This document shows, piece by piece, positions 3 through 58,515 of a stretch of DNA of 64,000 nucleotides (positions within the stretch are counted from its first letter, which is position 1; the number at the start of each line of letters is the position of its first letter). The notes beneath the pieces were generated by a model that was not told the origin of the DNA, did no database searches, and saw nothing but the letters and a program-made list of their open reading frames with translations. Source of the stretch: Agromyces protaetiae (GTDB lineage Bacteria; Actinomycetota; Actinomycetes; Actinomycetales; Microbacteriaceae); assembly GCF_030866785.1 (NCBI RefSeq), contig NZ_CP133018.1:1364001-1428000 (forward strand), written 5' to 3'. The position numbers were made by a program, and so were the translations under genes.

Positions 3-44
3 TGTCGGACGGGCGCGGCGGTCGCCGACGACACGGGCGACTGA
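3..44 (+). CDS. 3' end of an upstream gene (partial)
   Basis: The third frame from the window edge is open and ends at a TGA at 42-44, with G or C at nearly every third codon position, as in the real genes here. It would encode the last 13 residues of a protein (ending AVADDTGD). Nothing about function can be inferred from so short a tail, and it could be chance. Confidence 0.3.
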   Translation, partial: CRTGAAVADDTGD

Positions 45-147
45 GACGAGAGCAGTCTAGCGAGCGGATGCTTCGCATGAACGGTGAGCCGGTGGAATCA
101 TCCGCGCGGATGAGCCGGCCACTCAGGCGCCGAGCGCGCCGCGCGAC

Positions 148-795
148 TCAGGCGTCGAGCGCCTCGAACACCGCGCCGTTGAGACGGAACGAGGCGCGTG
201 CCTCGTCGATCAGCGCGTCGACCTCCGCCGGCTCGAGTGCGAGCGCATTCATGGCCTCGCGGTAGCGGCGCTTGTAGCGCACCGGGCCCTCCTCGAGGTC
301 GAAGTCGTAGAACGAGAGCTGTTCGGGCGTCGCGCCGTAGTGCCGTGAGACGAGCGCGGCGATGGCCTGGCCGCCCGAAAGGTCGCCGAGGTACCGGGTG
401 TAGTGGTGGGCGAGGTAGCGCACGTCGTCGTCGGCGAGCTCGCGCAGATGGGTCACGTACGCGGCGGTGGCGGGGAGCGGCGGGTGCGCCTCGCGCCAAT
501 CGGCCGCGCCGAGCGCTGCGAGGTCGGATTCGATGGCGGCGAAGCGCGCGAGCCTCGGGTCGAACACCTCGGGATCGCCGGCCCGGCTGCCGCGCTCCTC
601 GAGCGCTTCGTACACCCAGGCGTACTGAGCCAGGTAGCGCGTGTAGTCGTCGAGGGACAGCTCCCCTCCCATGAGCCTGGTGATGAATCCGCGGCTCTCG
701 GCGTTGCGATGATCGTCGGCCGTCGCGGCGCGGACGAGCGCGGCGACATCGAGCGGAGCGGTGCCGGCTGGAGCGGTGGGGGGAGCGATCGTCAT
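148..795 (-). CDS. hmuO: Heme oxygenase (biliverdin-producing)
   Basis: A 215-residue cytoplasmic heme oxygenase, which opens heme to biliverdin, CO and Fe2+ using reductant and O2, so that heme can serve as an iron source. The family hallmarks are visible: a likely proximal heme ligand His29 in DDHRNAE after a short N-terminal extension, and the distal-helix motif GDLSGGQ near residue 140. The length matches HmuO/HO-1 catalytic cores. ATG at 795 follows a GAAGGG ribosome site. A perfect iron box lies just upstream at 813-831, so expression is probably repressed by iron-loaded DtxR/IdeR. No heme-uptake genes are adjacent; the neighbour at 921 is divergent and unrelated. Family assignment is firm; the symbol is by analogy with corynebacterial HmuO. 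Confidence 0.93.
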   Translation of the reverse strand: MTIAPPTAPAGTAPLDVAALVRAATADDHRNAESRGFITRLMGGELSLDDYTRYLAQYAWVYEALEERGSRAGDPEVFDPRLARFAAIESDLAALGAADWREAHPPLPATAAYVTHLRELADDDVRYLAHHYTRYLGDLSGGQAIAALVSRHYGATPEQLSFYDFDLEEGPVRYKRRYREAMNALALEPAEVDALIDEARASFRLNGAVFEALDA

Positions 796-812
796 GGGGC
801 GCCCTTCGAGGA

Positions 813-831
813 TGAGGTAAGGCTTACCTCA
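813..831. promoter_or_regulatory. DtxR/IdeR iron box
   Basis: TGAGGTAAGGCTTACCTCA is a perfect 9-1-9 palindrome that closely matches the DtxR/IdeR consensus TTAGGTTAGSCTAACCTAA. It lies between a minus-strand -10-like TACGAT (833-838) and the heme oxygenase start at 795, where bound repressor would cover the transcription start. The divergent gene at 921 has its own -10 box 77 bases away and is less likely to be controlled. Confidence 0.9.
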
Positions 832-907
832 CATCGTAGACGGTGGCGTGCGCCGACGACACCCAGGACTCCGATTCCGTCGAGGGAACCGTGACGGTGG
901 CTCCACT

Positions 908-913
908 TAGGCT
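908..913 (+). promoter_or_regulatory. -10 box for a leaderless transcript
   Basis: TAGGCT ends seven bases before the ATG at 921, and no ribosome binding site lies between. This is the spacing expected when transcription starts at the A of the start codon. Confidence 0.6.
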
Positions 914-920
914 GCTCGCC

Positions 921-1793
921 ATGGAGTACGGATTCATCTTCACGGGCAGCGATCCCGAGCTCGCGGTCGAGCTCGCACCACTCGCCGAGGCCTCCGGCTG
1001 GGACGCGTTCTTCGTGTGGGAGGGCATCTGGGCGACCGACCCGTGGGCGACGCTCGCCGCCGCGGCCGTGCAGACCGAGCGCATCCGCCTCGGCACGATG
1101 CTGACGCCCGTCCCGCGCCGCCGTCCGTGGGAGCTGGCGGGCCAGACGATGACCGTCGACCGGCTCTCGCGTGGTCGGGTGATCCTCTCGGCCGGCCTCG
1201 GCGTACCGCAGTCGGTCGAAGACCGATTCTGGATCTTCGAGGACGATCCCGGCCGCCGCGCGCGGGCCGAGATGCTCGACGAGTCGCTCGAGCTGCTCGA
1301 GGCGATGTGGCGCGCTCAGCCGTTCGAGTTCGACGGCGAGCACTACCGCGCGCGCCGCACCGATGAGATGCTGCCGCTGCCGGTGGTGCAGCAGCCGCGG
1401 ATCCCGACCTGGGTGGTCGGCATGTGGCCGCGTCCGAAGTCGATGCAGCGCGTCGTGCGGGCCGACGGGTGGATTCCGAACTACGCGCCGCCCGGTGTGG
1501 AGCTCAGCGGCCCCGAGGAGCAGGCCGCTGTGTACACGCCCGCGGTCGCCGCCGAGGCGATCGCGTGGCTGCGTGCCGAGCGCGAGGCCGCGGGTCTCGC
1601 CGAGCGGCCGTTCGCGATCGTGCACGAGGGCACCACGAGCGCGACGGCGGCTTCGGCGGCCCGCGCAACCGTGCAGCCCTGGGCCGATGCGGGCGTCACC
1701 TGGTGGCTGGAGTCCGACTGGTCGGTGCCCGCCGACCGCGTCGAGGCGTACGCCCGCGAGCGTATCGCGGCGGGCCCGCCCGCCATCGGCTGA
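921..1793 (+). CDS. LLM-class flavin/F420-dependent oxidoreductase
   Basis: A 290-residue member of the bacterial luciferase-like TIM-barrel superfamily, cytoplasmic, which uses FMN or F420 to oxidise or reduce a small substrate. Visible family features are the N-terminal strand YGFIFTGSD, the RIRLGTMLTPVPRRRPWELA segment after strand 3, and the following SRGRVILSAGLG. I place the start at ATG 921 rather than the upstream GTG at 843 because homology begins there and TAGGCT sits seven bases upstream. Substrate and cofactor cannot be read from the sequence; the actinobacterial setting makes F420 plausible. It is transcribed away from the heme oxygenase and ends just before a convergent small membrane protein gene. 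Confidence 0.85.
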   Translation: MEYGFIFTGSDPELAVELAPLAEASGWDAFFVWEGIWATDPWATLAAAAVQTERIRLGTMLTPVPRRRPWELAGQTMTVDRLSRGRVILSAGLGVPQSVEDRFWIFEDDPGRRARAEMLDESLELLEAMWRAQPFEFDGEHYRARRTDEMLPLPVVQQPRIPTWVVGMWPRPKSMQRVVRADGWIPNYAPPGVELSGPEEQAAVYTPAVAAEAIAWLRAEREAAGLAERPFAIVHEGTTSATAASAARATVQPWADAGVTWWLESDWSVPADRVEAYARERIAAGPPAIG

Positions 1794-1799
1794 AGCGAC

Positions 1800-2033
1800 T
1801 CAGGCGAGCCGCTCGTCCTCCGGGCGTACGAGCCCGTCGCCATTGCGCCGGTCACGGCTCGACTGGATGAGCGTGACCACGCCCCAGCCGAAGGCGATGC
1901 CGCCGACGAACGTGAACGCGTGCAGCCATGATGGGCCGCCCATGACGTCGGCGACCAGCGCGACGACGCCGACCAGGATGCCGCCGAACAGATACCCGAG
2001 TGCAGCAGCCTCCCGGGTGGTGAAGTTCTTCAT
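1800..2033 (-). CDS. Small two-helix membrane protein
   Basis: A 77-residue protein with two hydrophobic helices (about residues 10-30 and 36-56) and a charged tail rich in Arg and Asp. I do not recognise the family. ATG at 2033 (MKNFTTREA) is preferred because TACATT on the minus strand (2041-2046) ends seven bases upstream, the leaderless arrangement seen repeatedly here. It is divergent from the LuxR gene at 2147. Confidence 0.7.
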   Translation of the reverse strand: MKNFTTREAAALGYLFGGILVGVVALVADVMGGPSWLHAFTFVGGIAFGWGVVTLIQSSRDRRNGDGLVRPEDERLA

Positions 2034-2146
2034 GCGGATGAATGTATAGCGACCGGGCCCGAGGGCCGGTGGCGATGCAGTGGTTCCTACCAGCCGTCGC
2101 CGTGGCCGCTCCGCGTTCGCGTCCTCAACGCCCATAAGGTGGAGAT
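2034..2146. promoter_or_regulatory. Divergent promoter region
   Basis: This 113-base gap holds the minus-strand -10 TACATT (2041-2046) for the small membrane protein. It also holds the plus-strand -10 TAAGGT (2135-2140), six bases before the LuxR-family ATG at 2147. GGAG (2141-2144) between that box and the ATG could instead act as a ribosome site. I see no clear operator dyad. Confidence 0.5.
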
Positions 2147-4510
2147 ATGCCCCCGGTTCGTTCGCAGGTCGCGCTCGTCCGGGACCGGCTGTTCGGACCG
2201 CTCGACGGGCCCGCGAGAATCGTCGCCGTCGTGGGCGCGCGGGGCGCAGGGGTGAGCACGGTGCTGCAACAGTGGCGCGAACGCCACGAGACCGCCGTGC
2301 ACGTAGCTCCCGCGAGTCTGCCCGAGCTGCCGCCCCACGAGGCCTCGGGCGCCGTGCTCGTCATCGATCACGGCGACCATCTCGCGAGCGCTGAGTGGCA
2401 CCAGCTGCGCCGTCTGCTCGACGCCTCCCCGCAGTTGCGCATCCGGCTCGGCGTCCGCAGTCTGCACGGGCTGCCACCCGAGCTCGAGGTGGAGGTCGTC
2501 GACGACCTGGCGTTCACGCCGGAGGAACTCGGTGACTACCTCAGGGAGAACGCATCGCGGGCGGACCCCGGTGCGGTGTTCCTCGCCACCGCCGGACATG
2601 CCCGCGCCGTGCGGGCGATCGTGACCAGCGGCGTCACGCGTCGCGACCGCTTCGCCACGGTGCTCACCGCGGCAGCGGGCGGGATCGGGCTGCCTGCGGC
2701 CGCGTCGCGGCTCGCGGTGCCGAGCGCCCTCACCCCGAGCATCGTCGCCGCACTCGGCGGTCCGGACGACTTCATCGAACGGGCCGAGCGCGATGGACTC
2801 GGCTCGTGGACTCCCGGTGGCGGGCCGCCGGTGTTCACGCTCACCCCGCTCGTCCGGGCGGCCACCGCGGCGACGCACCCGGTTCCTGCGGACGATCGGC
2901 GCGGCATCCGGCAGTCGGCCGCCGCCCAGCTCCTTGACGAGGAGGCCTGGCTCGCGGCGATCGTCGAGGGCGCGCAATCCGGGCGCCTCGACCTCGTCGA
3001 CGTAGCGCTGAAACGCGGCGGCATGTCCGTGCTCTGGGACCACGGGCCCGCGATCGTCCGGGTGCTTCGTGGAGTGCCGGTCGCCCAGCTGCGTCGCTGG
3101 CCGGTCATCGCGATGGCGCAAGCGCTCGTGCTGAACGCTCGCCGCCAGCACGCCATCCGTGCCGCGGAGCTGATGGGCATCGCGCTCCTCGGCATCCAGA
3201 CCAGCGCTCGATCGTCGCCCGACCGGGCGCTGCTGCGCGTCATCGAGAGCGTCGCCCGCCGGCTCACCGGCTTCGGCGACGGCGGGGTCAAAGCGGCGCG
3301 CGCCGCCGCCCGGACGCTCGACGAGATGCCGCCGGCCGCGCTCGAGGACCTCGCAGGACTGCTCGGCGATCTCCGGGTGCACGCGGGGATCAGCCTGCTG
3401 TACGGCGGACACCTCGACGAGGCGCGGCTGCAGCTCGAGCGCGCGGCCGCCGCGCCGAGTCGCGTCGGCATCGAGCTCATGGCGATCGGCGGCGTCGCCA
3501 TGGTCGAGGCACTCAAGGGTGACATCCACGCGGCGCGTCGGTGGACCGCGCTCGCGGAGGCACGGACGTGGCCGACCGACATCGTCGACGAGTATCCGGG
3601 GAGCATGCTGCGCATCGCGCAGGCCTTGGTCGCACTCGAAGCCGGACGGTTCGCGGACGCACGCGATCGGATCGCGACGATCTGGCCGATCATCGACACG
3701 ATCGAGCACTGGCCGATCCTCGGCTACGTCCGCGCACTCATCGATGTCCGCAGGGGCGCACCCGAGGACGGTCTCGAGGCGCTTCGGCTGCTCCGTCAAC
3801 GGCGTGGCGGCCGGCTCGGCTCCGCGTCCGCCTCGGCACGCCTGCTCGATCTCGCAGAATCGACGCTGGCGCTCGCCGCGGGTGATCTGGCGACGGCCCG
3901 GCGGCTGAAGCCCGGTGCCGCCGATCACCCGTGGATCTGGCTGGGGGCGGCGAGGGTCGCCGTGTTCGAAGGCGACGACGATCGCGCCTTCTCGCTCCTC
4001 GGACGGGTCCGGGCGGTCACGCCCCGCGATCGCCTGGGCCTGCTGAGCCTCGAGGCGGTCCTGCTCCGGCGGCTCGGCCGATCCGACGAGGCCGGCGACG
4101 TCGCCCGGCGTGCGGATGCGCTCGTGCGGGGCGCCGGGGTGCTCACGCCGCTCGCCCTCGTGCCGGCGAGCGATCAGGACCTGTTCACGCTCGATCTGCC
4201 CGATGCGCCGCGGGGCCTCGATGACGTGTCGGCCGCTCCGCGGCTCACCGACCGCGAGCTCGTCGTCCTCCAGCAGCTGGTCCACACCTCGCGACTGCAC
4301 GACATCGCGACGTCGCTGCACGTGTCGGAGAACACATTGAAGACGCAACGCCGGTCGTTGTACCGCAAGCTCGGAGCGACATCCCGTGAGGAGGCGCTCG
4401 CTCGAGCGCTGGCTCACGGCCTGATCGACGACACCGTCGCGCCGACGCGCGCGATGAATGGCACCGACAGCAGCACGAGCGACACCGCCACCGCGAACAG
4501 GAGCGGGTAG
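2147..4510 (+). CDS. Large LuxR-family regulator with degenerate P-loop
   Basis: A 787-residue transcription factor with the layout of MalT/LAL-type regulators: an N-terminal nucleotide-binding-like region, a long helical repeat-rich middle, and a C-terminal LuxR helix-turn-helix (about 700-762, LTDRELVVLQQL then SENTLKTQRRSLYRKL). The Walker A position reads GARGAGVST (30-38), with Val36 where the catalytic Lys belongs. A Walker-B-like strand, AVLVIDHGDHL, is still present, so ATP hydrolysis is doubtful. The last 97 bases overlap the 3' end of the convergent MFS gene; the residues after the HTH are low-complexity and may be dispensable. Target genes are unknown, with the neighbouring exporter the obvious candidate. 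Start is ATG 2147, behind TAAGGT and GGAG. Confidence 0.85.
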   Translation: MPPVRSQVALVRDRLFGPLDGPARIVAVVGARGAGVSTVLQQWRERHETAVHVAPASLPELPPHEASGAVLVIDHGDHLASAEWHQLRRLLDASPQLRIRLGVRSLHGLPPELEVEVVDDLAFTPEELGDYLRENASRADPGAVFLATAGHARAVRAIVTSGVTRRDRFATVLTAAAGGIGLPAAASRLAVPSALTPSIVAALGGPDDFIERAERDGLGSWTPGGGPPVFTLTPLVRAATAATHPVPADDRRGIRQSAAAQLLDEEAWLAAIVEGAQSGRLDLVDVALKRGGMSVLWDHGPAIVRVLRGVPVAQLRRWPVIAMAQALVLNARRQHAIRAAELMGIALLGIQTSARSSPDRALLRVIESVARRLTGFGDGGVKAARAAARTLDEMPPAALEDLAGLLGDLRVHAGISLLYGGHLDEARLQLERAAAAPSRVGIELMAIGGVAMVEALKGDIHAARRWTALAEARTWPTDIVDEYPGSMLRIAQALVALEAGRFADARDRIATIWPIIDTIEHWPILGYVRALIDVRRGAPEDGLEALRLLRQRRGGRLGSASASARLLDLAESTLALAAGDLATARRLKPGAADHPWIWLGAARVAVFEGDDDRAFSLLGRVRAVTPRDRLGLLSLEAVLLRRLGRSDEAGDVARRADALVRGAGVLTPLALVPASDQDLFTLDLPDAPRGLDDVSAAPRLTDRELVVLQQLVHTSRLHDIATSLHVSENTLKTQRRSLYRKLGATSREEALARALAHGLIDDTVAPTRAMNGTDSSTSDTATANRSG

Positions 4511-5610
4511 ACGCCGCCGCTGAGCGTGAGGAGCACGCCGGCGATCGCGGGCGCGAGCATCTGCGGGACGATGGTGGCGAGCCCGAGCACGCCGAGGTCT
4601 CGCCCGTGATCGGCGTTCGAGGGCAGCACATCGATCATGAGCGCCAGGTCGGCGCTCAGGTACACCCCGCGGCCGACCCCGCCGATCACCGCGAACAGCA
4701 GCAGCCCGGTGAGGTCCGGGAAGGCGATCGGGAGGAGCAGTGCGACCGCGAGCACCGCGGTCGCGCCGATGATCCATGGCCGGCGTGCGTCGCCGACGAG
4801 CTTGGAGCCGGCGACCGCGCCGACCACGATGCAGGCGATGTGCGTGCCGATCAGCAGGCTCACGGTGCTGCCGGCATCGGCGACCGAGGCATCCGTGAAC
4901 GCCATCACGATGTAGAGCAGGTAGCCCATCACCAGCTGATGGCCGAGGATCATGAGGAACCGGGCGGCGAACACGAGCCTCAGGTCGCGGGACTTCCAGG
5001 CCTCGCGTGCCGGGGTCGACGGGGGAGCGGCCTCAGGGGGTGAGCGATCCGGAGCCGCGAGCGTGAACCCGACCATGACCACGACGAGCACGACGGCGAG
5101 CACGACGTACACCGTGCCCGACGAGCTCGCGCCCTGTCCTGCGACGCCGGCCCCGATTGCGATGCCGATCGCCGCGCCACCGCCGTACACCGCGGCCGCC
5201 CGGGGTCGTGACGGCTGATCCACCCGGTCGGCGACGATCGCGTCCAGCGGGGCTTCGACCGTGTTCAGGAACGGTTGCAGGATGAGCCATCCGAGCGCGA
5301 TGGCCCACACCGCCTCGGCCTGACCGAGCAGGAGCATCGCGACCGCGCTCGCGAGTGCGCCGCCGACGATCCAGGGCGAGCGCCGTCCCCATCTGGACCG
5401 TGTGCGGTCGGACAGCGCTCCCGCGAGCGGATGCACCGCGAAGGTGACGAGCGACGACGCGGTCATGATCAGCGCGAGGGTGAGCTCCTTCCCCTCGGGG
5501 TCCGCGACGGCGACCTGGGCCGGTACGAGGACACCGGCGATCGCGCCGTACATGACGTTCAGGGCCAGGCTGGCGACCAGGAGCGGCCACAGCAGCCGGG
5601 ATGGGGGCAT
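4414..5610 (-). CDS. MFS transporter
   Basis: A roughly 398-residue major facilitator protein with about 12 transmembrane helices. The loop 2-3 motif A appears as GALSDRTRSRWGRR, typical of drug or sugar proton antiporters and symporters. ATG at 5610 (MPPSRLLWPLL) is preferred because GGAAGA lies about seven bases upstream; an in-frame GTG at 5634 would add eight residues. The 3' end overlaps the 3' end of the LuxR-family gene by 97 bases, so the two messages would be antisense there. The substrate cannot be predicted; sequences of this kind are often annotated as sugar or multidrug permeases. Confidence 0.85.
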   Translation of the reverse strand: MPPSRLLWPLLVASLALNVMYGAIAGVLVPAQVAVADPEGKELTLALIMTASSLVTFAVHPLAGALSDRTRSRWGRRSPWIVGGALASAVAMLLLGQAEAVWAIALGWLILQPFLNTVEAPLDAIVADRVDQPSRPRAAAVYGGGAAIGIAIGAGVAGQGASSSGTVYVVLAVVLVVVMVGFTLAAPDRSPPEAAPPSTPAREAWKSRDLRLVFAARFLMILGHQLVMGYLLYIVMAFTDASVADAGSTVSLLIGTHIACIVVGAVAGSKLVGDARRPWIIGATAVLAVALLLPIAFPDLTGLLLFAVIGGVGRGVYLSADLALMIDVLPSNADHGRDLGVLGLATIVPQMLAPAIAGVLLTLSGGVYPLLFAVAVSLVLLSVPFIARVGATVSSIRP

Positions 5611-5782
5611 CTGCGCATTCTTCCAGAGCCGCACGGGGTGGGGTGGCCGGGGGTGAGTTCGGGGGTGAATAGGTCGCGGTCCGCGACGATCGCCCGGTGC
5701 GACATCGGCACGCTCGGGGAAAGACAGCCGATGGCTGCCGTGCGCCGTCGTGCGCGCGCATCACCCCCAGGAGTCGCAGATC
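5611..5782. promoter_or_regulatory. Intergenic leader with dyad and short hairpin
   Basis: Upstream of the surface-protein gene lie two copies of CGGGGGTGA (near 5649 and 5660), then a perfect 15-base dyad GTCGCGGTCCGCGAC (5673-5687) and a small hairpin CAGCC-GAT-GGCTG (5725-5737). The dyad could be an operator for either divergent gene. AGGAG at 5769-5773 is the ribosome site for GTG 5783. I compared the GGGGGTGAAT stretch with the c-di-AMP riboswitch and found the rest of that consensus missing. Confidence 0.4.
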
Positions 5783-8059
5783 GTGAACGCTCACCATCCA
5801 GATCCGCCGCGTCGGAGACGCGGCCGAACACTCGCCAAGACGGCGTTCGCCGCCGTCGCGGCCACCATGCTCGTCGCCGGCGGTGCGACCGCCGCGCACG
5901 CGGTCGAGTCGACCGTCCCGGTCTCGCCGAACCCGCCGCTGGCCGACCGCTGCGACCTCGACCTCGCCATCAGCATCGACCTGTCGAACTCGGTGACCGA
6001 CACGCAGCTCGCGCAGGCCCGTGCCGAGCTCTCCGGGCTCGTGGCGGCACTCGAGGGCTACCCCGTGAATCTCGCGGTGCACAACTTCGCCTCGAACGCG
6101 CCGGCGACCTCGGCTGCGTCGAACGCGCCGCTGCCCCTCACCTCGCTGGCGGACGCTGATGGCGTCGCGGCGATCGATGCGTACGTCAACGGCCTGCAGC
6201 GGCCGACGTCGGCTCAGGGCGGGACCAACTGGGATCGTGCGTTCGCCGAGATCGCGGACTCCACGGAGGCGTACGACGCGCTGCTGTTCATGACGGACGG
6301 CAACCCGACCCAGTACAACAGCCCCGCGCAGGGCCCGGGCAACTCGACGAACCAGGCCACGATCGACGCCGCCGTGACGAGCGCCAACGCGGTGAAGGCC
6401 GAAGGCGTGCGCGTGGTCCCGATCGGGGTCAACGACAACCTTTCCGGCAATGCGCTGGAGCAGTTCCGCGAGCACATCGAGCAGGTCTCGGGGCCGGTCG
6501 AGGGCAGCGACTACTACATCGCGGGCTTCACCGGTCTGCAGGACACGCTGATCGAGATCATCAACGCGAACTGCGCCTCGATCGACCTCGAGAAGGTGGG
6601 CGAACTCGCCGACGGCGCCACGGGCGCGGTCGGCGACCGCATCGACTATGCCTTCACGGTGACGAACACGGGCACGGTCACGCTCACCGGCGTCACCCTG
6701 GCAGACCCGAAGCCAGGACTGTCGGAGATCGAGTTCGGTGTCTGGCCCGGTGCACCCGGCGTGCTGGCGCCTGGTGCCTCGGTCCACGCGACCGCGAGCT
6801 ACCTGCTGACCGAAGCGGATGTCTCGGACGGGGAGGTCGCGAACGTGGCCGCCACCTCGGGGCTGCCGCCGGCCGGTGCCGCGGTGACCGATGAGTCGCC
6901 TGCGCTGGTCGTGCTGCCCGAGCCGGCCCCCGGCATCGACCTCGTCAAGAACGGCGCCGTGAACGGCAGCTCGATCGACTACACCTTCACCGTCACGAAC
7001 ACCGGCAACACCGTGCTCACGGGCGTCTCGATCACGGATGAGCTCGACGGGATCTCGGAGATCGTGTACGGCACCTGGCCGGGCGCGGCGGGCGTGCTCG
7101 CGCCGGGCCAGTCGGTCACCGCGACCGCGACCTACGTCATCACGCAGGCCGATCGGGACGCGGGCGAGGTCGTGAACACCGCGACCGCGACGGGGACGCC
7201 GCCGAGCGGCCCGGATGTCTCGGACGAGGATGGACACGAGCAGCCGCTGCCCGCGGCGCCTGGGATCCAGCTCGTGAAGACCGGCGCCGTCGACGGTTCG
7301 GCGATCGACTACACCTTTACGGTCACGAACACTGGCAACGTGACGCTGACGTCGGTGAACGTCGCCGATGAGCTCGAGGGCCTCTCGGAGATCGTGTACG
7401 GCACGTGGCCGGGCGAGGCCGGCGTGCTCGCGCCGGGCCAGTCGGTCACCGCGACCGCGACCTACGTCATCACGCAGGCCGACCGCGACGCGGGTGCGGT
7501 CGTGAACACCGCGACCGCGACGGGCACCCCGCCGAGCGGCCCGAACGTCTCCGACGAGGACGACCACGAGCAGCCGCTGGTGCCGTCCCCGGCGATCCAG
7601 CTGGTCAAGACGGGTTCGCTGACGGATGGCACGATCGCGTACGAGTTCATGGTGACGAACACGGGCAATGTGACGCTGTCAGGCGTCTCGATCGCCGATG
7701 AGCTTCAGGGCCTGTCGGAGATCGTGTTCGGCACGTGGCCGGGCGAGGCCGGCGTGCTCGCGCCGGGCCAGTCGGTCACCGCGACCGCCTCCTACCGGGT
7801 CACCGACGCCGACCGCGCCGCAGGCTCGGTCACGAACTCCGCGACCGCCACCGGTCTCCCCCCTGCCGGCCCGGCGGTCGCGGATGAGGACGGCGTCGAG
7901 GTGTCGACCCCGGCGCCGCCCACGAAGCCCACGGCACCGCTTGCCGACACGGGCTTCGACGGTGAGCGACTCGCCGGCGTCGGCGTGCTCGCCGCGCTGA
8001 CGCTGCTCCTCGGAGCGGGCGCGCTGTTCGTCCAGCGCCGCATCCGCGCCGGCGCGTAG
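5783..8059 (+). CDS. LAXTG-anchored surface protein: VWA domain plus four DUF11-like repeats
   Basis: A 758-residue secreted protein predicted to be bound to the cell wall. In order: an Arg-rich n-region and Sec signal peptide ending near residue 40 (ATAAHA); a von Willebrand factor A domain (about 60-245) with an intact MIDAS motif D66-L-S-N-S70 and later TDG; four DUF11-like beta-sandwich repeats of 107-118 residues (about 267-710); then the sorting signal LADTG (720-724), a hydrophobic helix and a basic tail. LAXTG is the type recognised by actinobacterial class E sortases. GTG at 5783 is chosen because AGGAG lies nine bases upstream and the signal peptide follows directly. The MIDAS domain suggests metal-dependent adhesion. 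A strong terminator follows. Confidence 0.88.
6581..7915 (+). repeat. Four in-frame 0.33-kb repeats encoding DUF11-like domains
   Basis: Units begin at 6581, 6935, 7265 and 7595. The second and third are exactly 330 bases. Each encodes I-D/Q-L-x-K ... Y-x-F-x-V-T-N-T-G ... G-V-L-A-P-G ... A-T. Units 2-4 share long identical nucleotide runs around the [12 protein letters not shown] segment, suggesting recent duplication or gene conversion, while unit 1 is more diverged. Confidence 0.85.
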
Positions 8060-47542: not shown

Positions 47543-48223
47543 TCATCCCACGAGTGCCCGGTACGCCTCGAGCGACGCGGCCGGTGGGCCGTCGGCGACG
47601 ACGCGACCCTCGTCGACCACGAGCACGCGGTCGAACGACTCGACCGACTCGAGCCGGTGCGTGACGAGGATGAGCTGCTGATCCAGCTGGGCGAAGTGCC
47701 GCTCCACGAGCAGCGAGTTGCGTGCGTCGAGCAGCGTGGTCGGCTCGTCGGCGACGACGATCGCCGGCTCGGCGACGAGCACGGCCGCGAGCGCGAGCAG
47801 CTGCTTCTGCCCGCCCGACAACCGGTGCGCCGGCCGGTCGGCGAGCTCGGTCAGCCCGAACCGCGCGAGCGCGCCGTCGACCCGGGCCGAGGCATCCGCC
47901 GCACTCAGCTTGAGCCGCCGCAGCGAGAACGCGACGTCCTCGCGCACCGTCGGCATGACGATCTGGTGATCGGGATTGGTGAACACGAACCCGACGCGGC
48001 GCCGCACCTCGCGGCCCTGCCGCGCGACGTCGAGCCCGTCCACCAGCACCCGGCCCGACGTGGGCGAGATGAGCCCGTTCACGAGTCGCGCGAGCGTCGA
48101 CTTGCCCGAGCCGTTCGCGCCGATCACACCGATACGCGGCTCGGTGAGGCTCAATGACACCTCGTGCAGCACCGGCTGGTCGTCGTACCGGTGCGAGACC
48201 CGGTCGAAGACGATCTCGGGCAT
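47543..48223 (-). CDS. bioM: Biotin ECF transporter ATPase BioM
   Basis: A 226-residue ABC ATPase of the energy-coupling factor class. It has Walker A GANGSGKST, the ECF-typical TNPDHQI Q-loop segment, signature LSGGQKQL and Walker B VVADEPTTLLD. The ATG shares a base with the bioY stop (TGATG). Confidence 0.92.
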   Translation of the reverse strand: MPEIVFDRVSHRYDDQPVLHEVSLSLTEPRIGVIGANGSGKSTLARLVNGLISPTSGRVLVDGLDVARQGREVRRRVGFVFTNPDHQIVMPTVREDVAFSLRRLKLSAADASARVDGALARFGLTELADRPAHRLSGGQKQLLALAAVLVAEPAIVVADEPTTLLDARNSLLVERHFAQLDQQLILVTHRLESVESFDRVLVVDEGRVVADGPPAASLEAYRALVG

Positions 48224-48861
48224 CAGCGGGCAGCCGGCGCGGCCTCGTCGGCGCTGCGGCGACGCCACGGCCACTCGCGCGGCACGATCAGGCCGGGCCA
48301 TGCGCGGTGCACGCCGGCTGCGACGCCGGCCGCGATGACCGCCTTGACGACATCGCCGGGCAGGAACGGCACGGCGCCCGCCAGGAACGCCTGATGGAGC
48401 GGCAGTCCGGTGACCACCGCGAGCCAGGGCACGCCGACGAGGTACACCACCACGATGCCGCCCACGACACTCGCGACGAGCAGCGGCCAGAACTTCAGCC
48501 GCGGCGCGAAGCGCTCGGCGATCCAGCCGATGACGAACGCGCCGGGGATGAATCCGATGAGGAACCCGCCCGACGGGCCCGCGAGCACGCCGAGACCGGC
48601 GGCGCCGCCCGCGAGGATCGGAAGTCCGGCGAGGCCGAGCGCGGCATACACGATGACGGCGAGCGAGCCCTTGCGCGCCCCGAGCATGACGCCCGCGAGC
48701 ATGACGCCGAGGGTCTGCAGGGTGATCGGCACGCCGAAGCCGACTGGGATTGCTCCGGGCAGGGTGAGGCCGGCGATGAGCGCGGCGAACACCGCGATCT
48801 GGGCGAGGTCGCGTGCGGTGGACTTCGGCGCGGCGCGGCTGGGCGTGGGGGCAGTCGTCAT
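48223..48861 (-). CDS. bioY: Biotin transporter substrate-binding membrane protein BioY
   Basis: A 212-residue S component with six helices and the BioY pattern (VPITLQTLGVMLAG and GPSGGFLIGFIPGAF). ATG 48861 is chosen because TAGCGT on the minus strand (48869-48874) lies seven bases upstream, a leaderless layout; GTG 48870 is the alternative. The following bioM and bioN genes make a complete biotin importer. Confidence 0.94.
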   Translation of the reverse strand: MTTAPTPSRAAPKSTARDLAQIAVFAALIAGLTLPGAIPVGFGVPITLQTLGVMLAGVMLGARKGSLAVIVYAALGLAGLPILAGGAAGLGVLAGPSGGFLIGFIPGAFVIGWIAERFAPRLKFWPLLVASVVGGIVVVYLVGVPWLAVVTGLPLHQAFLAGAVPFLPGDVVKAVIAAGVAAGVHRAWPGLIVPREWPWRRRSADEAAPAAR

Positions 48862-48949
48862 GAAGCTCACGCTAGGAAGGACCGGCCGGCGTGCGCGCGA
48901 GGTCGCCCTACAAAGAACCGGCGCCGACTTTGGAGCGCGGTGCGCCGGG

Positions 48950-49829: not shown

Positions 49830-50420
49830 ATGCCCACAGACCCTCAGCCGACGTCCCGCGTGCGCGCCGCCGACGAGCTCAAACAGGTCGCCCTCGAGCA
49901 GTTCGCGACGGTCGGTTTCGCGGCGAGCTCGCTGCAGCAGATCGCCGACCGCGCCGGGTACTCGAAGTCGAGTGTGCTGTACCACTACGCCTCCAAAGAG
50001 GCGCTGCTCGAGGCCGCGATCGGGCCGGCCATCGACCTGCTCGAGCGTCTGCTCCGGGACTTCGTCGACGCCGGCCGCACGCTCGACGCACGCCGCGTGT
50101 TCATCCGGGAGTTCGTCGACTTCCTGCTCGGCAACCGGCTGGCCGTGCACACCTTCGTGAACCAGGGCCAGTTCCTGCGGGACATCCCGGTCATCGAACG
50201 CGCGAACACCGTGATCCGCGGGCTCGCCGACTCCATCTGCGACGCCGATGCGCCGCTCGCCGAGCAGATGCGCTTCGGCGTCGCGCTCGCCGGCGCGACC
50301 TACGCCCTCGTCGCCGACGAGACGATCCTCGAGGACGAGCAGCGTCACCCCGACGACGAGGTCCGCGAGGCGCTCGTCACCGTGCTCTCCGAACTGCTGC
50401 TGCCGGCCGACGGCCGCTGA
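49830..50420 (+). CDS. TetR-family repressor of the MMPL export operon
   Basis: A 196-residue regulator with the N-terminal TetR helix-turn-helix (ALEQFATVGFAASSLQQIAD, then YSKSSVLYHYASKEALLEAA) and a helical ligand domain. It starts at ATG 49830 in a leaderless arrangement directly after its own operators. The MMPL gene begins 21 bases downstream. The inducer is probably a substrate of the exporter. Confidence 0.9.
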   Translation: MPTDPQPTSRVRAADELKQVALEQFATVGFAASSLQQIADRAGYSKSSVLYHYASKEALLEAAIGPAIDLLERLLRDFVDAGRTLDARRVFIREFVDFLLGNRLAVHTFVNQGQFLRDIPVIERANTVIRGLADSICDADAPLAEQMRFGVALAGATYALVADETILEDEQRHPDDEVREALVTVLSELLLPADGR

Positions 50421-50441: not shown

Positions 50442-53303
50442 GTGGCCCTCCTCCTCCACCGCATCGGACGCTTCGCCTACCGCCGCGCCTGGCTCGTCCT
50501 CGCCGCCTGGGGCGTGGCGCTCGCCGCGCTGCTCGGCGCGGGCATCGGTCTCGGCGGTCAGCTGCAGGAGTCGTACTCGATTCCCGGCACCGAGTCGCAG
50601 ACCGCGATCGACCAGCTCGCGGCCGTGTTCCCGCAGACCGCGGGAGCGTCGGCGAAGGCCGTGCTCGAGGTGCCCGACGGCGACTCGGTCGAAGACGCCT
50701 CCGCCCGCTCGGCGATCGAGGCCATGGAAGCCGAGCTCGAAGACGTCGACGGCGTCGCCAGCGTGCTCGGCCCGTTCGACGAGTACGCGGGCGACCAGAT
50801 CTCCGGCGACGAGCGCACCGCCTACATCCAGGTCCAGTTCGACGGTCAGACGACGGATGTCTCGCAGGACTCCTTGGATGCGGTCGTCGCCACGGGCGAG
50901 ATCGGCCGGGACGCCGGGCTCGAGGTGGCCTTCGGCGGTGAGGTGTTCGAGGAGACGACGTTCGGGCTCACGATCACCGAGGCGCTTGGCGTGCTCTTCG
51001 CCGGCGTCGTGCTCTTCATCACGTTCGGATCGCTCGTCGCGGCGGGCATGCCGCTGCTCACCGCGCTCGTGGGCGTGGGCGCCGCCTTCGGCGGCATCAC
51101 GATCGTCTCGGCCTTCACGACCGTGTCGAGCACCGCGCCGATGCTCGCGGTGATGATCGGGCTGGCGGTCGGCATCGACTACGCGCTGTTCATCCTCTCG
51201 CGGCACCGCACCCAGCTCGCCCGGGGCGAGGATCCCGAGCACAGTGCGTCCGAGGCGGTCGCGACCGCGGGCGGTGCGGTCGTGTTCGCGGGCCTCACGG
51301 TCATCATCGCGCTCCTGGGGCTCCTCGTGGTCGGCATCCCGTTCCTCAGCGTCATGGGCGTCGCCGCGGCGTTCGCGGTCTTCATCGCGGTCGCCGGCGC
51401 CGTCACGCTCCTGCCGGCGCTGCTCGGACTGCTCGGCCACCGGCTCGTGCCGAAGCCCGGCAGCCGCGCGGCGCGACGGGCGCTCGCCGGCGACGAGGGC
51501 GGAAAGCGCACGATGGGCCGCCGCTGGGTCGACACGGTGCTGAAGGCGCCGATCGTGTTCGTGGTGCTGGTCGTCGGGCTGCTCGGCGCCGCCGCCATCC
51601 CCGCCGCGAGCCTCGACCTGAATCTGCCCGCGGGCAACGGCGAACCGGGCTCGAGCCAGCGCGAGGCCTACGACATGATCGCCGACGGGTTCGGCCCCGG
51701 CGCCAACGGGCCGCTCATCGTCACGGTCGACATCACCCAGACCACCGACATCTTCGACGACCTGGACGCGATCGGCGCGCGCCTCGCGGAGGTCGACGGC
51801 GTCGACTACGTCGGTCAGGGCATGCCGAACGAGACGGTCGACACGGCGATCATCCAGGTCATCCCCGAGAGTGCGCCCGACGACCCCGAGACCAAGCACG
51901 TGGTGCAGGAGATCCGCGACCTGGAGCCCTCGATCACCGCCGACTTCGGCACACCCATCGCGGTCACGGGCTACACGGCCGTCTCGATCGACATCTCGCA
52001 ACGACTGAACGATGCGCTCATCCCGTTCGCGCTCATCGTCGTCGGCCTCTCGATCGTGCTGCTGCTCATCGTCTTCAGGTCGCTGTTCGTGCCGGTCAAG
52101 GCCGCACTCGGCTTCCTGCTCTCGGCGTTCGGCGCGATCGGGGTGACCGTCGCGGTCTTCCAGTGGGGCTGGGCGGCCGAGCTGTTCCACATCGAGCCGG
52201 GCCCCATCCTCAGCTTCCTGCCCATCCTGCTCATGGCGGTGCTCTTCGGGCTCGCCATGGACTACGAGGTGTTCCTCGTGTCGGGCATGCGCGAGGAGTA
52301 CGTGAAGACCAAGGACCCGCGTACCTCGATCGTGCACGGCTTCCAGCACGCGGCCCGCGTCGTCACGGCCGCCGCGCTCATCATGTTCTTCGTCTTCTTC
52401 GCCTTCGTGCCCGAGGGCTCCGGCGTGATCAAGGGCATCGCCTTCGCGCTGGCCGTCGGGGTCGCCTTCGATGCGTTCCTCGTGCGGATGACCCTCGTGC
52501 CGGCCGCGATGGCCCTCGCCGGCCGCGGCGCCTGGTGGTTGCCGACGTGGCTCGCCCGCGCGCTGCCCGACGTCGACATCGAGGGCGAGGGCCTCAGGAC
52601 GCACCTCGACCAGGCGGCGTGGGCGGCATCCCGACGAGCGGCCGTGCTCGCCGAGGACGCCGTCTTCGGCCTGCCGGACCGCCCGATCGGCCCGGTCGAC
52701 GTCGAGGCGCCGACCGGAGGGCTGCTGCTCGTCTCCGGCGAGCCGGTCGATCGCCGGATCGTGGCCGCCGCGCTCGCCGGCCGCCTCGCGCCGGTCGACG
52801 GCCGGGTCGCGGTGCTCGGCGAACCGCTTCCCACCGGGGCATCCGCCGTGCTCCGCCGCGTCGCGATCGCCGAGCTCGACACCGACGCCACGCGAAGCGT
52901 GGCGGACCTGATCGCCTCCCGGCTCGACGCGACGAGGCCGTGGTACCGGCTCACGCCCTCGACCGCGGCAGTCGACGGCTGGCTCGAGCGCCTCACCGAG
53001 GCGCGCGGCCCCGGAGCGGCCGGCATCGATCGTCACACGAGCGTCGCCGCGCTCGGCGCGGTCGACCGTGCGCTGATCGCGCTGACCGCCGCGCTCGCCG
53101 AACGACCCGACGCGGTCGTGATCGACCTCGACGACGAGACCGGCGCCGACGGCGCCCGGTTCTGGTCGGCCGCGGCCCGGCTCGTTCCGGCCGCCACCAC
53201 CGTCATCGCCGGGGTCGCGCCCGGGCATGACGCCGCACCCTTCGCGCCGCGCGGGCTCAGCACCGTCCGCCTCGGCGCCGTCCTCCAGGAGACGAACCGA
53301 TGA
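50442..53303 (+). CDS. MMPL/RND-type exporter with C-terminal decayed ABC-ATPase-like domain
   Basis: A 953-residue membrane protein. Residues 1 to about 700 are a standard MMPL transporter: two repeats of one plus five helices, each with a large extracytoplasmic loop (for example VGIDYALFILSRHR and GLAMDYEVFLVSGMREEYV). The last 250 residues follow the plan of an ABC ATPase but without its catalytic residues: LLLVSGEPVDRRIVAAAL where Walker A should be (no GKS/T), GRVAVLGEPL, then LGAVDRALIALTAALAERPD at the signature and VVIDLDDETG at Walker B. GTG 50442 has a weak GAGAAAGA upstream. The stop overlaps the YhgE/Pip gene (ATGA). Substrate is probably a lipid or drug. Confidence 0.88.
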   Translation: MALLLHRIGRFAYRRAWLVLAAWGVALAALLGAGIGLGGQLQESYSIPGTESQTAIDQLAAVFPQTAGASAKAVLEVPDGDSVEDASARSAIEAMEAELEDVDGVASVLGPFDEYAGDQISGDERTAYIQVQFDGQTTDVSQDSLDAVVATGEIGRDAGLEVAFGGEVFEETTFGLTITEALGVLFAGVVLFITFGSLVAAGMPLLTALVGVGAAFGGITIVSAFTTVSSTAPMLAVMIGLAVGIDYALFILSRHRTQLARGEDPEHSASEAVATAGGAVVFAGLTVIIALLGLLVVGIPFLSVMGVAAAFAVFIAVAGAVTLLPALLGLLGHRLVPKPGSRAARRALAGDEGGKRTMGRRWVDTVLKAPIVFVVLVVGLLGAAAIPAASLDLNLPAGNGEPGSSQREAYDMIADGFGPGANGPLIVTVDITQTTDIFDDLDAIGARLAEVDGVDYVGQGMPNETVDTAIIQVIPESAPDDPETKHVVQEIRDLEPSITADFGTPIAVTGYTAVSIDISQRLNDALIPFALIVVGLSIVLLLIVFRSLFVPVKAALGFLLSAFGAIGVTVAVFQWGWAAELFHIEPGPILSFLPILLMAVLFGLAMDYEVFLVSGMREEYVKTKDPRTSIVHGFQHAARVVTAAALIMFFVFFAFVPEGSGVIKGIAFALAVGVAFDAFLVRMTLVPAAMALAGRGAWWLPTWLARALPDVDIEGEGLRTHLDQAAWAASRRAAVLAEDAVFGLPDRPIGPVDVEAPTGGLLLVSGEPVDRRIVAAALAGRLAPVDGRVAVLGEPLPTGASAVLRRVAIAELDTDATRSVADLIASRLDATRPWYRLTPSTAAVDGWLERLTEARGPGAAGIDRHTSVAALGAVDRALIALTAALAERPDAVVIDLDDETGADGARFWSAAARLVPAATTVIAGVAPGHDAAPFAPRGLSTVRLGAVLQETNR

Positions 53304-55297
53304 GCACCCGACTGCAATCCCTGCTCGGCCGCACCGACCGCCAACGCCGCACGCGCTTCGCCGCACTGCTCGCGGCCGTCATCCTCGTGCCGCTCGCGGT
53401 CGCCGGCCTCGTCTCCGGCGCGCTCGGCGGCGCCGCCGACCGCCTCGAGACCATTCCCGCCGTCGTGGTGAACGACGATCAGATGGTCACCACGACGCTT
53501 CCCGACGGCAGCGAGCAGACGGTGCTCGCCGGACGGCTGCTCGTGACCGAGCTCACCGGTGACGGGGGTGCCGGTTTCGACTGGTCGATCACGAATGACG
53601 ACGAGGCCGCCGAGAAGCTCGAGTCGGGCGAGGCGTACGCGGTGCTGACCATCCCGCCCGGGTTCTCGGAGTCGATCACGTCGCTGTCGGGCGACCAGCC
53701 CACCAAGGCCGACCTCTCGATCCGCACCGACGACGCGCACGGCTACCTCGCGGGCGCCGTCGCGCAGTCGGTGGGCACCGCGATGAGCGCCACATTCGGC
53801 CAGGCCATCACGGCGCAGTACCTCGAGGGCTTCTACGGCAACCTCGCCACCCTCGGTGGCTCGCTCGGCGACGCCGCGAGCGGCGCGACGGAGCTCTCGA
53901 GCGGCGCCGGCACACTGGCCGATGGGGTCGGGCAGCTGTCGGCGGGCGTCGCGCAGGCGGCGTCGGGCGCGGCGGATGCCTCGGCCGGGGCCTCGACGTA
54001 CGCCTCCGGCGTGCACCAGTTCGCCGACGGCGTGACCGGCTACACGCAGGGCGTCGACGGCATCGCGTCCGGCCTCGGCCAGCTCAGTGCCGGCGCAGCG
54101 CGCGTGGATCAGATCTCCGATGCCTGGGACCAGTACACGGGCGGGATCTCCGCGGGCGTCAGCCAGGTCGACCAGTACCTCGGCCCGGCTGCGACCGGCC
54201 TCGATCAGTTCATCGCTGAGAACCCGGAACTTGCCGCGCAATTCCCGCAGTTGCAGCAGGCGGCCAATGCCGTCACGGGTGTGCGCGGCCAACTCGGTCA
54301 GCTCTCGACCGGCGGCCAGACCCTCGCGGCGGAGTCCCGCGCAGCGATCGATGGTCTGCAGGGCGGGATCGCCGAGGCCGCCGGCGGCGCCGCACAGATC
54401 TCCGCCGGATCCGCGGGTCTCCGCGACGGGGCGACCGGTCTCGCCGCGGGCGCCGACCAGCTCGCCGGCGGCGTGGACGAACTCGCCTCGGGTCTCGGGC
54501 AGCTCTCGACCGGGGCATCCGCCGCCGCGACCGGAGCCACGCAGCTCGCCGACGGCACCACCCAGCTCGCCGACGGCCTCACCAGCGGCGCCGAGGGCGC
54601 CTCGGCGCTGACCGACATCGACGCCGCCGAGACGGCCGACGTGGTGTCGCAGCCGGTGAGCGTCGCCTCCGAGCGCCAGAACGAGATCGGGTCGATCGGC
54701 GAGGTCATCGGCATCCTCTTCGCGCCCATCGGGCTCTGGATCGGTGCGCTCGCGATGTTCCTCGTGTTCCGCCCGATCACGCGCGAGGTGCTCCGCAGTA
54801 CGTCCTCGACCGGTGGCATCGTCGGTCGCACGCTCGTGCGTGCCTCGCTCGTCGCACTCGCGCAGACCGTGGCCGTGGTCGCGCTGCTGCACGCCGCGCT
54901 GGGAGTCTCGTGGGCGGTGCTCCCGCAGACGCTCGCGTTCTCGGCGCTCATGGCGCTGGTGTTCACCGCGCTGCACGCGTTCCTCACCACGGCCTTCGGC
55001 CGGGCGGGACTGCTCGTCTCGCTCGTGCTCGTCGCGCTGCAGATCGCGGCGACGGGCGGGCTCTACCCGATCGAGGTCGTGAGTGCGCCGTTCCAGGCGA
55101 TCAGCCCGTTCCTGCCGCTCACCTGGGCGGTACAGGGCATGCAGGGCATCGTGGCGGGCGTCGGCGGTGGGGTCGTCGGCGGCGCGGCGGCGGTGCTGGC
55201 GCTGTTCGGGCTGGCCGGCGTGCTGCTCACCTGGGCGGTCGTGGCGCGGCGCCGAGGCATCCGCTCGACCGGCCTGACCGCGGCCGCGCTGGGCTGA
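53300..55297 (+). CDS. YhgE/Pip-family ABC-2-like membrane protein
   Basis: A 665-residue protein with one N-terminal helix (about 18-40), a long extracytoplasmic part rich in Gly-Ala-Ser-Leu heptad-like repeats (about 190-430, such as LSSGAGTLADGVGQLSAG) and about five C-terminal helices of ABC-2 type. The family includes phage infection protein Pip and ESX-linked YhgE/EsaA-like proteins. Its ATG overlaps the MMPL stop by four bases. The pairing suggests a joint envelope exporter under TetR control. Confidence 0.87.
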   Translation: MSTRLQSLLGRTDRQRRTRFAALLAAVILVPLAVAGLVSGALGGAADRLETIPAVVVNDDQMVTTTLPDGSEQTVLAGRLLVTELTGDGGAGFDWSITNDDEAAEKLESGEAYAVLTIPPGFSESITSLSGDQPTKADLSIRTDDAHGYLAGAVAQSVGTAMSATFGQAITAQYLEGFYGNLATLGGSLGDAASGATELSSGAGTLADGVGQLSAGVAQAASGAADASAGASTYASGVHQFADGVTGYTQGVDGIASGLGQLSAGAARVDQISDAWDQYTGGISAGVSQVDQYLGPAATGLDQFIAENPELAAQFPQLQQAANAVTGVRGQLGQLSTGGQTLAAESRAAIDGLQGGIAEAAGGAAQISAGSAGLRDGATGLAAGADQLAGGVDELASGLGQLSTGASAAATGATQLADGTTQLADGLTSGAEGASALTDIDAAETADVVSQPVSVASERQNEIGSIGEVIGILFAPIGLWIGALAMFLVFRPITREVLRSTSSTGGIVGRTLVRASLVALAQTVAVVALLHAALGVSWAVLPQTLAFSALMALVFTALHAFLTTAFGRAGLLVSLVLVALQIAATGGLYPIEVVSAPFQAISPFLPLTWAVQGMQGIVAGVGGGVVGGAAAVLALFGLAGVLLTWAVVARRRGIRSTGLTAAALG

Positions 55298-56271: not shown

Positions 56272-58515
56272 ATGACGACATCTCCCGGATCAGACGAGCT
56301 CTACATCGACGCCGCCTACGACATGGTCGTGGTCTCGAACCGCCTCCCGGTCGACTATCAAGGGGGAGTCGGCGCCGACACGATCTGGCGCAGCTCGCCC
56401 GGCGGGCTCGTCACCGCGCTCGAACCGGTCATGCGCACATCCGGTGGCGCGTGGGTGGGCTGGCCGGGTGTGGCCGACCGCGAGTTCGACCCGTTCGACC
56501 ACGACGGGATCTCGATCATCCCCGTGCCGCTGTCGGAACAGGAGCTCGCCGACTACTACGAGGGTTTCTCGAACGACACCATCTGGCCGCTGTACCACGA
56601 CGTGATCGCGCCGCCGACGTTCCACCGCGAATGGTGGGACGCCTACGTTCGCGTGAACCGGCGGTTCGCCGAGGCTGCCGCTCGTGCGGCTGCCGAGGGT
56701 GCGGTGGTCTGGGTGCAGGACTACCAGCTGCAGCTCGTGCCGCGGATGCTCCGCGAGTCCCGCCCCGACCTCGTCATCGGGTTCTTCAACCACATTCCGT
56801 TCCCGGCATACGGCATCTACTCGCAGCTGCCGTGGCGCCGCCAGGTCGTCGACGGCCTGCTCGGTGCCGACGTGATCGGCTTCCAGCGTTTGGCCGACGC
56901 GAGCAACTTCGCGCGTGCGGTGCGCCGCTTGTTCGGCTACGCGACGAAGGGCACCGTGATCGAGGTCCCGGCCGAGGACGGCGAGGTCCGACGGGTCGTC
57001 GCCCGGCACTTCCCGATCTCGATCGATGCCGCCGGCTTCGAGGAGATCGCACGGCGTCCCGAGGTCCAGGAGCGCGCCAGACAGATCCGTGAGGAGCTCG
57101 GCAACCCGGCGACGATCATGCTGGGCGTCGACCGGCTCGACTACACCAAGGGCATCCGGCACCGCATCAAAGCCTTCGGCGAACTGCTCCACGAGGGACG
57201 GCTGTCGGTCGAGGACGCCACGCTCGTCCAGGTCGCGAGCCCGTCGCGCGAACGCGTCGAGACCTACCGGCAGCTGCGTGACGAGATCGAGCTCCAGGTC
57301 GGCCGGTTGAACGGCGACTACTCGACCCTCGGGCACCAGGCGGTGGCCTACCTCCACCACGGGTACCCGCGCGAAGAGATGGTCGCGTTGTACCTGGCCG
57401 CCGACGTCATGCTGGTGACCGCGCTCCGCGACGGCATGAACCTGGTCGCGAAGGAGTACGTCGCATGCCGGTTCGACACCGACGGCGTGCTGCTGCTCAG
57501 CGAGTTCACCGGGGCGTCCGATGAGCTGCGACAGGCGATCCTCGTGAACCCGCACGACATCGAGGGGCTGAAGGACTCGATCATCGAGGCCACGCAGATG
57601 CCCGCGCGCGAGCGCGCGCGACGCATGCGGGCCTTGCGGAAGCGCGTCCGTGACAACGACGTCGCGAACTGGTCGGCGACCTTCCTCAAGACCCTCACCG
57701 GCGTCGGCAAGATCGCGCCGGGCATCTCCGATCCGCTGCAGGCCGCGATCGTCGCGCTCGCGAGCACCGAGCGACTGCTCGTCGCCCTCGACTTCGACGG
57801 CACGCTCGCGCCACTCGTCGACCGTCCCGAGGACGCCCGCGCGACCGAACGCGCCCGTGCGGCGATCGAACGACTCGCCTCCGACGAGGAGACCCGTGTG
57901 GCGATCGTGTCGGGCCGGGCGCTCCAGAGCCTCAGCGAGGTCGCGAATCCGTCGGCGGGCACCCTGCTCTCGGGCTCGCACGGCGTCGAGCTGCAGCTCG
58001 ACGCGGGGGGCGTGCAGGTCGACCTGCGCGAGAACGAGCTCGCGAAGCTCGAGCGCCTCGGACAGATCGTCGAACAGGTCGCCGCAGCGACGCCCGGCGC
58101 ATGGATCGAGCACAAGCCGGCCGGACTCGCGCTACACACCCGGCAACTGAGCACCGCCGACGGTGTGGCGTTGCAACAGGACGCGCGTACGCACGTCGAG
58201 ACCGAGCTCGTGGGCATCACCGTGCGCACGGGCAAGGCCGTGCTCGAGTTCGCCGTACGCGAGAGCGACAAGGGCGAGTCGCTCACCCGGCTCCGCCAGC
58301 ACGTCGGGGCCACTGCGGTGCTCTATATCGGCGACGACGTCACCGACGAAGACGCGTTCGCGACGCTCGACAGCGACGACGTCGGGGTCAAGGTCGGTCA
58401 GGGCAAGACCCTGGCGGCGCATCGCGTGCGCAGCCCGGACGACGTCGCTGAGCTGCTCGAGCGGCTGGCCGATGCCCGCGAGGGCGCGCGCGGGCGAGAC
58501 CCGCGCTGGACATAG
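56272..58515 (+). CDS. otsA-otsB: Bifunctional trehalose-6-phosphate synthase/phosphatase
   Basis: A 747-residue fusion. The N-terminal part (to about 480) is an OtsA glycosyltransferase (GT20) that makes trehalose 6-phosphate from UDP-glucose and glucose 6-phosphate, with [12 protein letters not shown], the [11 protein letters not shown] loop and KEYVACR. The C-terminal part is an OtsB HAD phosphatase with LDFDGTLAP (nucleophile near Asp507), IVSGRAL and [10 protein letters not shown], releasing trehalose. GAGGAGG precedes ATG 56272, and TAGCCT (56236-56241) is a likely -10. Trehalose protects against osmotic and drying stress. Confidence 0.95.

Follow-up and report, generated by a model that had tools for sequence, protein, structure and literature searches.

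An MMPL exporter fused to an ABC ATPase-like domain lacking catalytic motifs, and its linkage to YhgE in Agromyces protaetiae and other Actinomycetes

ABC-2-type membrane proteins normally need an ATPase motor, and MMPL exporters are proton-driven. In the window, that is, the whole 64,000-nt stretch of DNA analysed here from the 4.18-Mb genome of Agromyces protaetiae (the close relatives named in protein searches were Agromyces species), one gene joined an MMPL exporter to an ABC ATPase-like domain and overlapped a gene for an ABC-2-type protein, raising the question of what such a domain does at the end of a pump. The gene order on the + strand was TetR, MMPL fusion and YhgE/Pip. The first gene (nt 49830–50420) encoded a TetR-type regulator of 196 aa (PF00440, 48.8 bits, cut-off 24), a relative of which was present in 31 of 32 fused loci of Microbacteriaceae; 21 bases separated its end from the start of the fusion gene, 953 codons long (nt 50442–53303). 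The YhgE/Pip gene (nt 53300–55297) began with a start codon overlapping the fusion-gene stop as ATGA (nt 53300–53303), the four-base overlap that had been noticed earlier. On the - strand, at nt 47543–48870, lay BioY together with an intact gene for an ABC ATPase, called ECF-type from its position beside BioY, which served as the positive control for motifs.

Residues 1–705 of the fusion protein (nt 50442–52556) made up an MMPL/RND exporter: PF03176 was matched twice (E 5.2e-90), and MmpL3 in the PDB was matched with E 1.2e-53, the MmpL3-like core extending over residues 9–708. Asp246-Tyr247 (nt 51177–51182) aligned with the IDY of MmpL3 (Asp256-Tyr257) and Asp607-Tyr608 (nt 52260–52265) with its DYEVF (Asp645-Tyr646), the two pairs described, with this numbering, as the MmpL3 proton relay (PMC10466384). 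By pattern, the first pair was found in 65 and the second in 62 of 66 fused loci, and in 79 and 71, respectively, of 83 Agromyces-type proteins, some of which were partial sequences. Since both pairs are kept, the MMPL part is probably powered by the proton gradient. Unlike MmpL3, the protein has an ABC-fold domain as its tail, and it scored 214 bits with the MmpL3 equivalog model NF052608, against a cut-off of 1400. A PDVDIEGE motif (residues 709–716, nt 52566–52589) follows the MMPL part.

The last 245 residues, scanned alone against family models, gave no match. Profile, structure and family evidence agreed in assigning an ABC nucleotide-binding-domain fold, predicted with high confidence, to about residues 731–948 (nt 52632–53285); because of this agreement, an artefact or chance resemblance was rejected. 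The profile and structure comparison proposed in the earlier note thus recovered the fold and bore out its description of an MMPL exporter carrying a decayed ABC ATPase-like domain. Among 47 family members searched with Pfam, PF00005 was matched by nine (best 8.1e-4), other folds being represented by four families with one or two members each at E up to 0.1. The whole fold was shared with the ABC ATPase subunits EcfA, MlaF, FtsE and TM_1403, but unlike in these, Walker A, Q-loop, signature and catalytic Glu were all replaced. Where Walker A (GxxxxGK[ST]) is expected, the domain had GEPVDRRI (residues 766–773, nt 52737–52760), of which 124 of 126 fused relatives share Arg771 and 118 share Arg772; the Q-loop position was Glu811 (nt 52872–52874), with Glu in 74 and Asp in 45 of 125 relatives; the signature position read LGAVDRA (residues 871–877, nt 53052–53072) instead of LSGGQxx; and the Walker B remnant was VVIDLDD (residues 892–898, nt 53115–53135), in which Leu896 replaced the catalytic Glu. 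Thus, the absence of catalytic motifs claimed earlier held for Walker A, signature and catalytic Glu alike, and the domain would no longer bind or hydrolyse ATP in the canonical way.

The downstream protein consisted of an ABC-2-type membrane part and a heptad-repeat middle, and like YhgE/Pip proteins in general exceeded the cut-offs of both the N- and C-terminal models (TIGR03061, 113.7 bits, cut-off 96.15; TIGR03062, 148.3 bits, cut-off 102.2); TIGR03057 (70 bits, cut-off 18.6) and PF12698 (74.1 bits, cut-off 31.6) were also matched. Phage infection proteins belong to the YhgE/Pip group, as do relatives of EsaA, a protein of type VII secretion; membership in EsaA was rejected for the window's protein (TIGR03929, 27 bits against a cut-off of 122). 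A PDB profile search gave 32 matches, all of which, judged by names and ranges, fell on the coiled-coil middle, and none for the membrane part. With the motifs absent from the upstream domain, the pair did not amount to a complete ABC transporter, that is, YhgE plus a nucleotide-binding domain with catalytic motifs. The main text of a paper on enterococcal PIP (PMC4999554) describes a YhgE/PIP domain without known function and does not use the word ABC, whereas the YhgE of the window has an ABC-like partner upstream.

The domain was not confined to this locus. In Microbacteriaceae, 187 of the 299 genomes, spread over 66 of the 85 genera, matched it at E up to 0.001; a few of these genomes may match by the MMPL tail alone because the 245-residue query includes about 20 residues of it. 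The first 40 loci comprised 33 with MMPL plus domain (one truncated at a contig end, another frame-broken) and seven with free-standing relatives; profiles of the two sets aligned with an hhalign probability of 99.7 (E 3e-27), and a PW[WY]-like motif was common to both. Wider scans of 396 genomes of the order and 394 of the class, with loci fetched, placed both forms across Actinomycetes. From 139 rows scoring at least 58 bits (those below being outside the count), L174, L176, L180 and L182 were excluded as being ordinary ABC ATPases for which no YhgE was found downstream. The remaining 135 rows form the family, with 65 fused members and 70 taken as free-standing; the latter include three cut or frame-broken fused genes (L061, L071, L195), and some rows share a locus (two each in L061, L062, L144 and L148, three in L151). 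YhgE lay directly downstream in 134 of these 135 rows, the loci having been picked by the domain; the exception, L134, stops at a contig end. A start allowing the four-base overlap exists in 47 of the 65 fused rows, counted by choosing the in-frame start nearest to such an overlap. Since the loci had been chosen by the domain, a reverse search was made from YhgE with TIGR03062 in 118 genomes of the class. It gave 51 places, 26 of them over the cut-off, in 25 genomes; among these 26, examined as a set, a family member stood upstream of YhgE in every case (4 fused, 22 free-standing), in 19 by coordinates (domain upstream on the same strand, the two starts under 2.6 kb apart) and in seven by fetching and checking.

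Thus, the fusion operon is not a local oddity: it extends to a class-wide family linked to YhgE, and YhgE in this sample comes with an ABC-like partner lacking normal ATPase motifs. Microbacteriaceae, the family for which a survey had been proposed earlier, do contain the domain, but the event is class-wide rather than theirs. The free-standing proteins belong to the same family as the window domain and likewise stand upstream of YhgE; they differ in being separate from MMPL and in that several keep Walker A, and in Herbiconiux and Glaciihabitans they are annotated as 'ATP-binding cassette domain-containing protein'. These free-standing relatives suggest that the ABC-like protein is the partner of YhgE, which in the fusion has become tied to a pump through that partner.

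The reading favoured here, at a rough probability of 0.55, is that the C-terminal domain is a pseudo-ATPase docking piece for YhgE and that MMPL and YhgE form one TetR-regulated export unit. The domain would have been retained as the cytoplasmic docking piece of YhgE, the product of the adjoining gene, and, lying within the MMPL chain, would hold the proton-driven exporter against the ABC-2-type protein. The proton gradient would power MMPL, YhgE, which has a long heptad-repeat region, would carry or accept the substrate beyond the membrane, and the adjoining TetR would control the unit. Counting against this reading, free-standing members occur without MMPL, so YhgE does not always need it. 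So does the helical subdomain, which is part of the groove that receives the coupling helix in ABC transporters; many other Micrococcales fusions lacked the helical-subdomain stretch, including the signature (181–249 residues from motif to end in 20 loci), and canonical docking would not be possible there because this part of the groove is lost. A power-source swap, in which an ABC-2-type protein with a dead ATPase came to be driven by a proton-powered RND pump, the dead ATPase serving as mechanical coupling and the free-standing relatives resembling the stage before the swap, is a tentative extension that we consider rather doubtful.

The motifs were lost to different degrees across the family, as scored by alignment with the intact ABC gene of the window together with pattern searches. 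Exact LSGGQ occurred in none of the 135 rows, against LSGGQ in L174 and the ABC gene of the window and LSSGQ in L176, and Asp-Glu at Walker B in no aligned row, against all three of these ABC controls. Nine of the 65 fused rows, all outside Microbacteriaceae, and 11 of the 70 free-standing rows retained Walker A. Roughly 40 more free-standing rows had a Lys-to-Arg P-loop (GSGRT and the like), the commonest free-standing form, for which 'GR' scoring was doubtful in 5 of 47 rows (L061, L165, L183, L184 and L188); 12 fused 'GR' rows were not P-loops and mostly reflected a later AGR motif. This recurrent, unusual variant was seen, for example, in free-standing L105–L111 and L143–L149. A protein search with a fused member keeping Walker A (100% match, Aeromicrobium sp. 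S22) gave 88 proteins; GK[ST] was found in 80 of 87 fused matches (P0174 being outside the 87, and P0158 searched whole since the motif was not found in it). Among free-standing matches GK[ST] was present in 17 of 20, compared with 0 of 83 Agromyces-type proteins, in which the P-loop is gone. By alignment, none of 82 Agromyces-type matches and none of 20 free-standing ones had Asp-Glu at Walker B; among 86 matches to the Aeromicrobium query a single fused protein did (P0170), itself without Walker A. One SGG[QEM] string (P0065) was located away from the signature position. The Aeromicrobium fusions shared the architecture of the window protein, with YhgE adjoining in the loci fetched, but differed in their intact Walker A and in exceeding the PF00005 (ABC_tran) cut-off (48.1 bits in P0087, cut-off 25); most are annotated as MMPL family transporter, and the one of A. 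marinum as 'ABC transporter, ATP-binding protein'. The survey for unfused or intact versions suggested earlier thus found the former, and fused members with intact Walker A outside Microbacteriaceae alone, with LSGGQ in none. The earlier interpretation is partly supported and extended: the window's domain represents a late stage of decay within a YhgE-linked pseudo-ATPase family found across the class, and one branch of this family was built into an MMPL pump.

Such a pattern would also suit a regulatory or nucleotide-sensing domain, in which ATP binding by the members that keep Walker A would serve to gate YhgE or MMPL, with no canonical hydrolysis involved, and the domain in the window's lineage would be a fixed regulator that has lost binding as well. 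The Walker A counts above, the commonness of the Lys-to-Arg P-loop among free-standing rows, and the loss of the signature from all members and of the catalytic Glu from every member except one, itself without Walker A, agree with it. Against it, the phosphate loop is gone from the lineage of the window, as the Agromyces-type proteins testify; this alternative appears unlikely beside docking.

How the fusion arose can be approached within the same genome. A close, unfused MMPL paralogue (L198; 466 bits to the MMPL part of the window, 893-codon frame) ended with PNVDVEG, its version of the PDVDIEGE motif, and about 20 further residues, about where the fusion begins in the window protein, and neither the domain nor YhgE was found in 9.5 kb around it. 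Neither was found in the stretch fetched around a more distant MMPL paralogue (L197), and the stretch around a third RND-like gene (L199) gave no match. The two YhgE matches of the genome (E up to 1e-10) adjoin its two fused MMPL genes, the second operon, L142 (G000:C1:962000-971500, nt 1834–6854), being of the helical-subdomain-less kind, its domain being short and its YhgE scoring below the TIGR03062 cut-off. A short PF03176 match was seen elsewhere in the genome (G000:C1:206860-207099). The earlier note had proposed that an ABC ATPase gene was fused to the MMPL gene and lost catalysis. Its first part stands: the unfused paralogue ends about at the junction, fused relatives with intact Walker A exist, and the domain goes with YhgE, being directly upstream of it when free-standing, and the unfused paralogue has no YhgE in the 9.5 kb around it. 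Loss through fusion was rejected; because free-standing and Walker A-keeping fused members also lack the signature and catalytic Glu, their loss was probably independent of fusion. In a quick tree the fused and free-standing states need three changes; a single fusion is nevertheless compatible with the data, as a tree holding all 61 fused rows together was not worse (p-AU 0.549, the test set excluding six rows that had long branches or fell outside the family). A three-gene stage with separate MMPL, ABC-like and YhgE genes was found in none of the loci examined, and titles and abstract openings on YhgE, MMPL, ABC-2, EsaA and domain fusion gave no description of such a fusion.

In seven Agromyces comparisons the dN/dS of the domain was 0.28–0.65, against 0.10–0.31 for the MMPL tail, so that slow decay is possible since the domain evolves faster than MMPL. 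A vestige whose role ended once MMPL took over would likewise account for the lost motifs, for the helical subdomain that other lineages have lost and for two broken-frame copies (L061, nt 2240–7070, and L195, each broken within or near the domain by assembly error or real loss). Against this, dN/dS was below 1 in all seven comparisons, 78 of 83 Agromyces-type matches were of full length (953–1015 aa; the others being P0039, P0075, P0081, P0085 and P0086), residues such as Arg771, Arg781 and Gly787 were near-invariant, the fold was predicted with high confidence, and every family row in the loci examined came with YhgE, bar the one at a contig end; simple decay is therefore judged quite unlikely. 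Two database entries, P0085 and P0165, run as single ORFs from MMPL into ABC-2 and are frameshift artefacts or real three-part fusions.

Over 30 loci, domain distances correlated more closely with those of YhgE (r 0.80) than with those of their own MMPL (0.72), and the partial correlation between domain and YhgE given MMPL and TetR was 0.36 (ranks 0.50), compared with 0.09 (ranks 0.20) for the control of domain and TetR given MMPL and YhgE. Given MMPL alone, the values were 0.54 for domain and YhgE and 0.44 for domain and TetR, and MMPL and YhgE correlated at 0.81; such distance-matrix correlations, in which unequal rates and common descent act as confounders, are no more than suggestive of docking. 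An assembly factor, with MMPL and YhgE acting separately and the domain only helping its partner to fold or to insert into the membrane, would fit the overlapping genes equally well, since these would suit co-translational assembly. The covalent place of the domain in the MMPL chain and the tracking of YhgE by its distances speak against this alternative, yet both are compatible with it; we consider it improbable.

The RND and ABC superfamilies of transporters seem to be joined here through a dead motor domain, whose relatives have decayed to various degrees. Because the ABC-like partner of YhgE lacks ATPase motifs and, in one form, belongs to a pump that is probably proton-driven, the question of what powers YhgE becomes directly testable.

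A fused trehalose-phosphate synthase/phosphatase gene (nt 56272–58515) adjoined the operon, and an OtsA/OtsB relative was present in 19 of the 66 fused loci and in 2 of the 69 free-standing ones, the flanks being short. MmpL3 exports a trehalose lipid; this neighbourhood may point to a trehalose-lipid substrate or may be plain synteny. As for the free-standing genes, L062 (nt 3–4531) had two units of ABC-like gene and YhgE that diverge from each other, one on each strand, and L144 and L148 had such units as tandem pairs, as if the two formed a heteromer.
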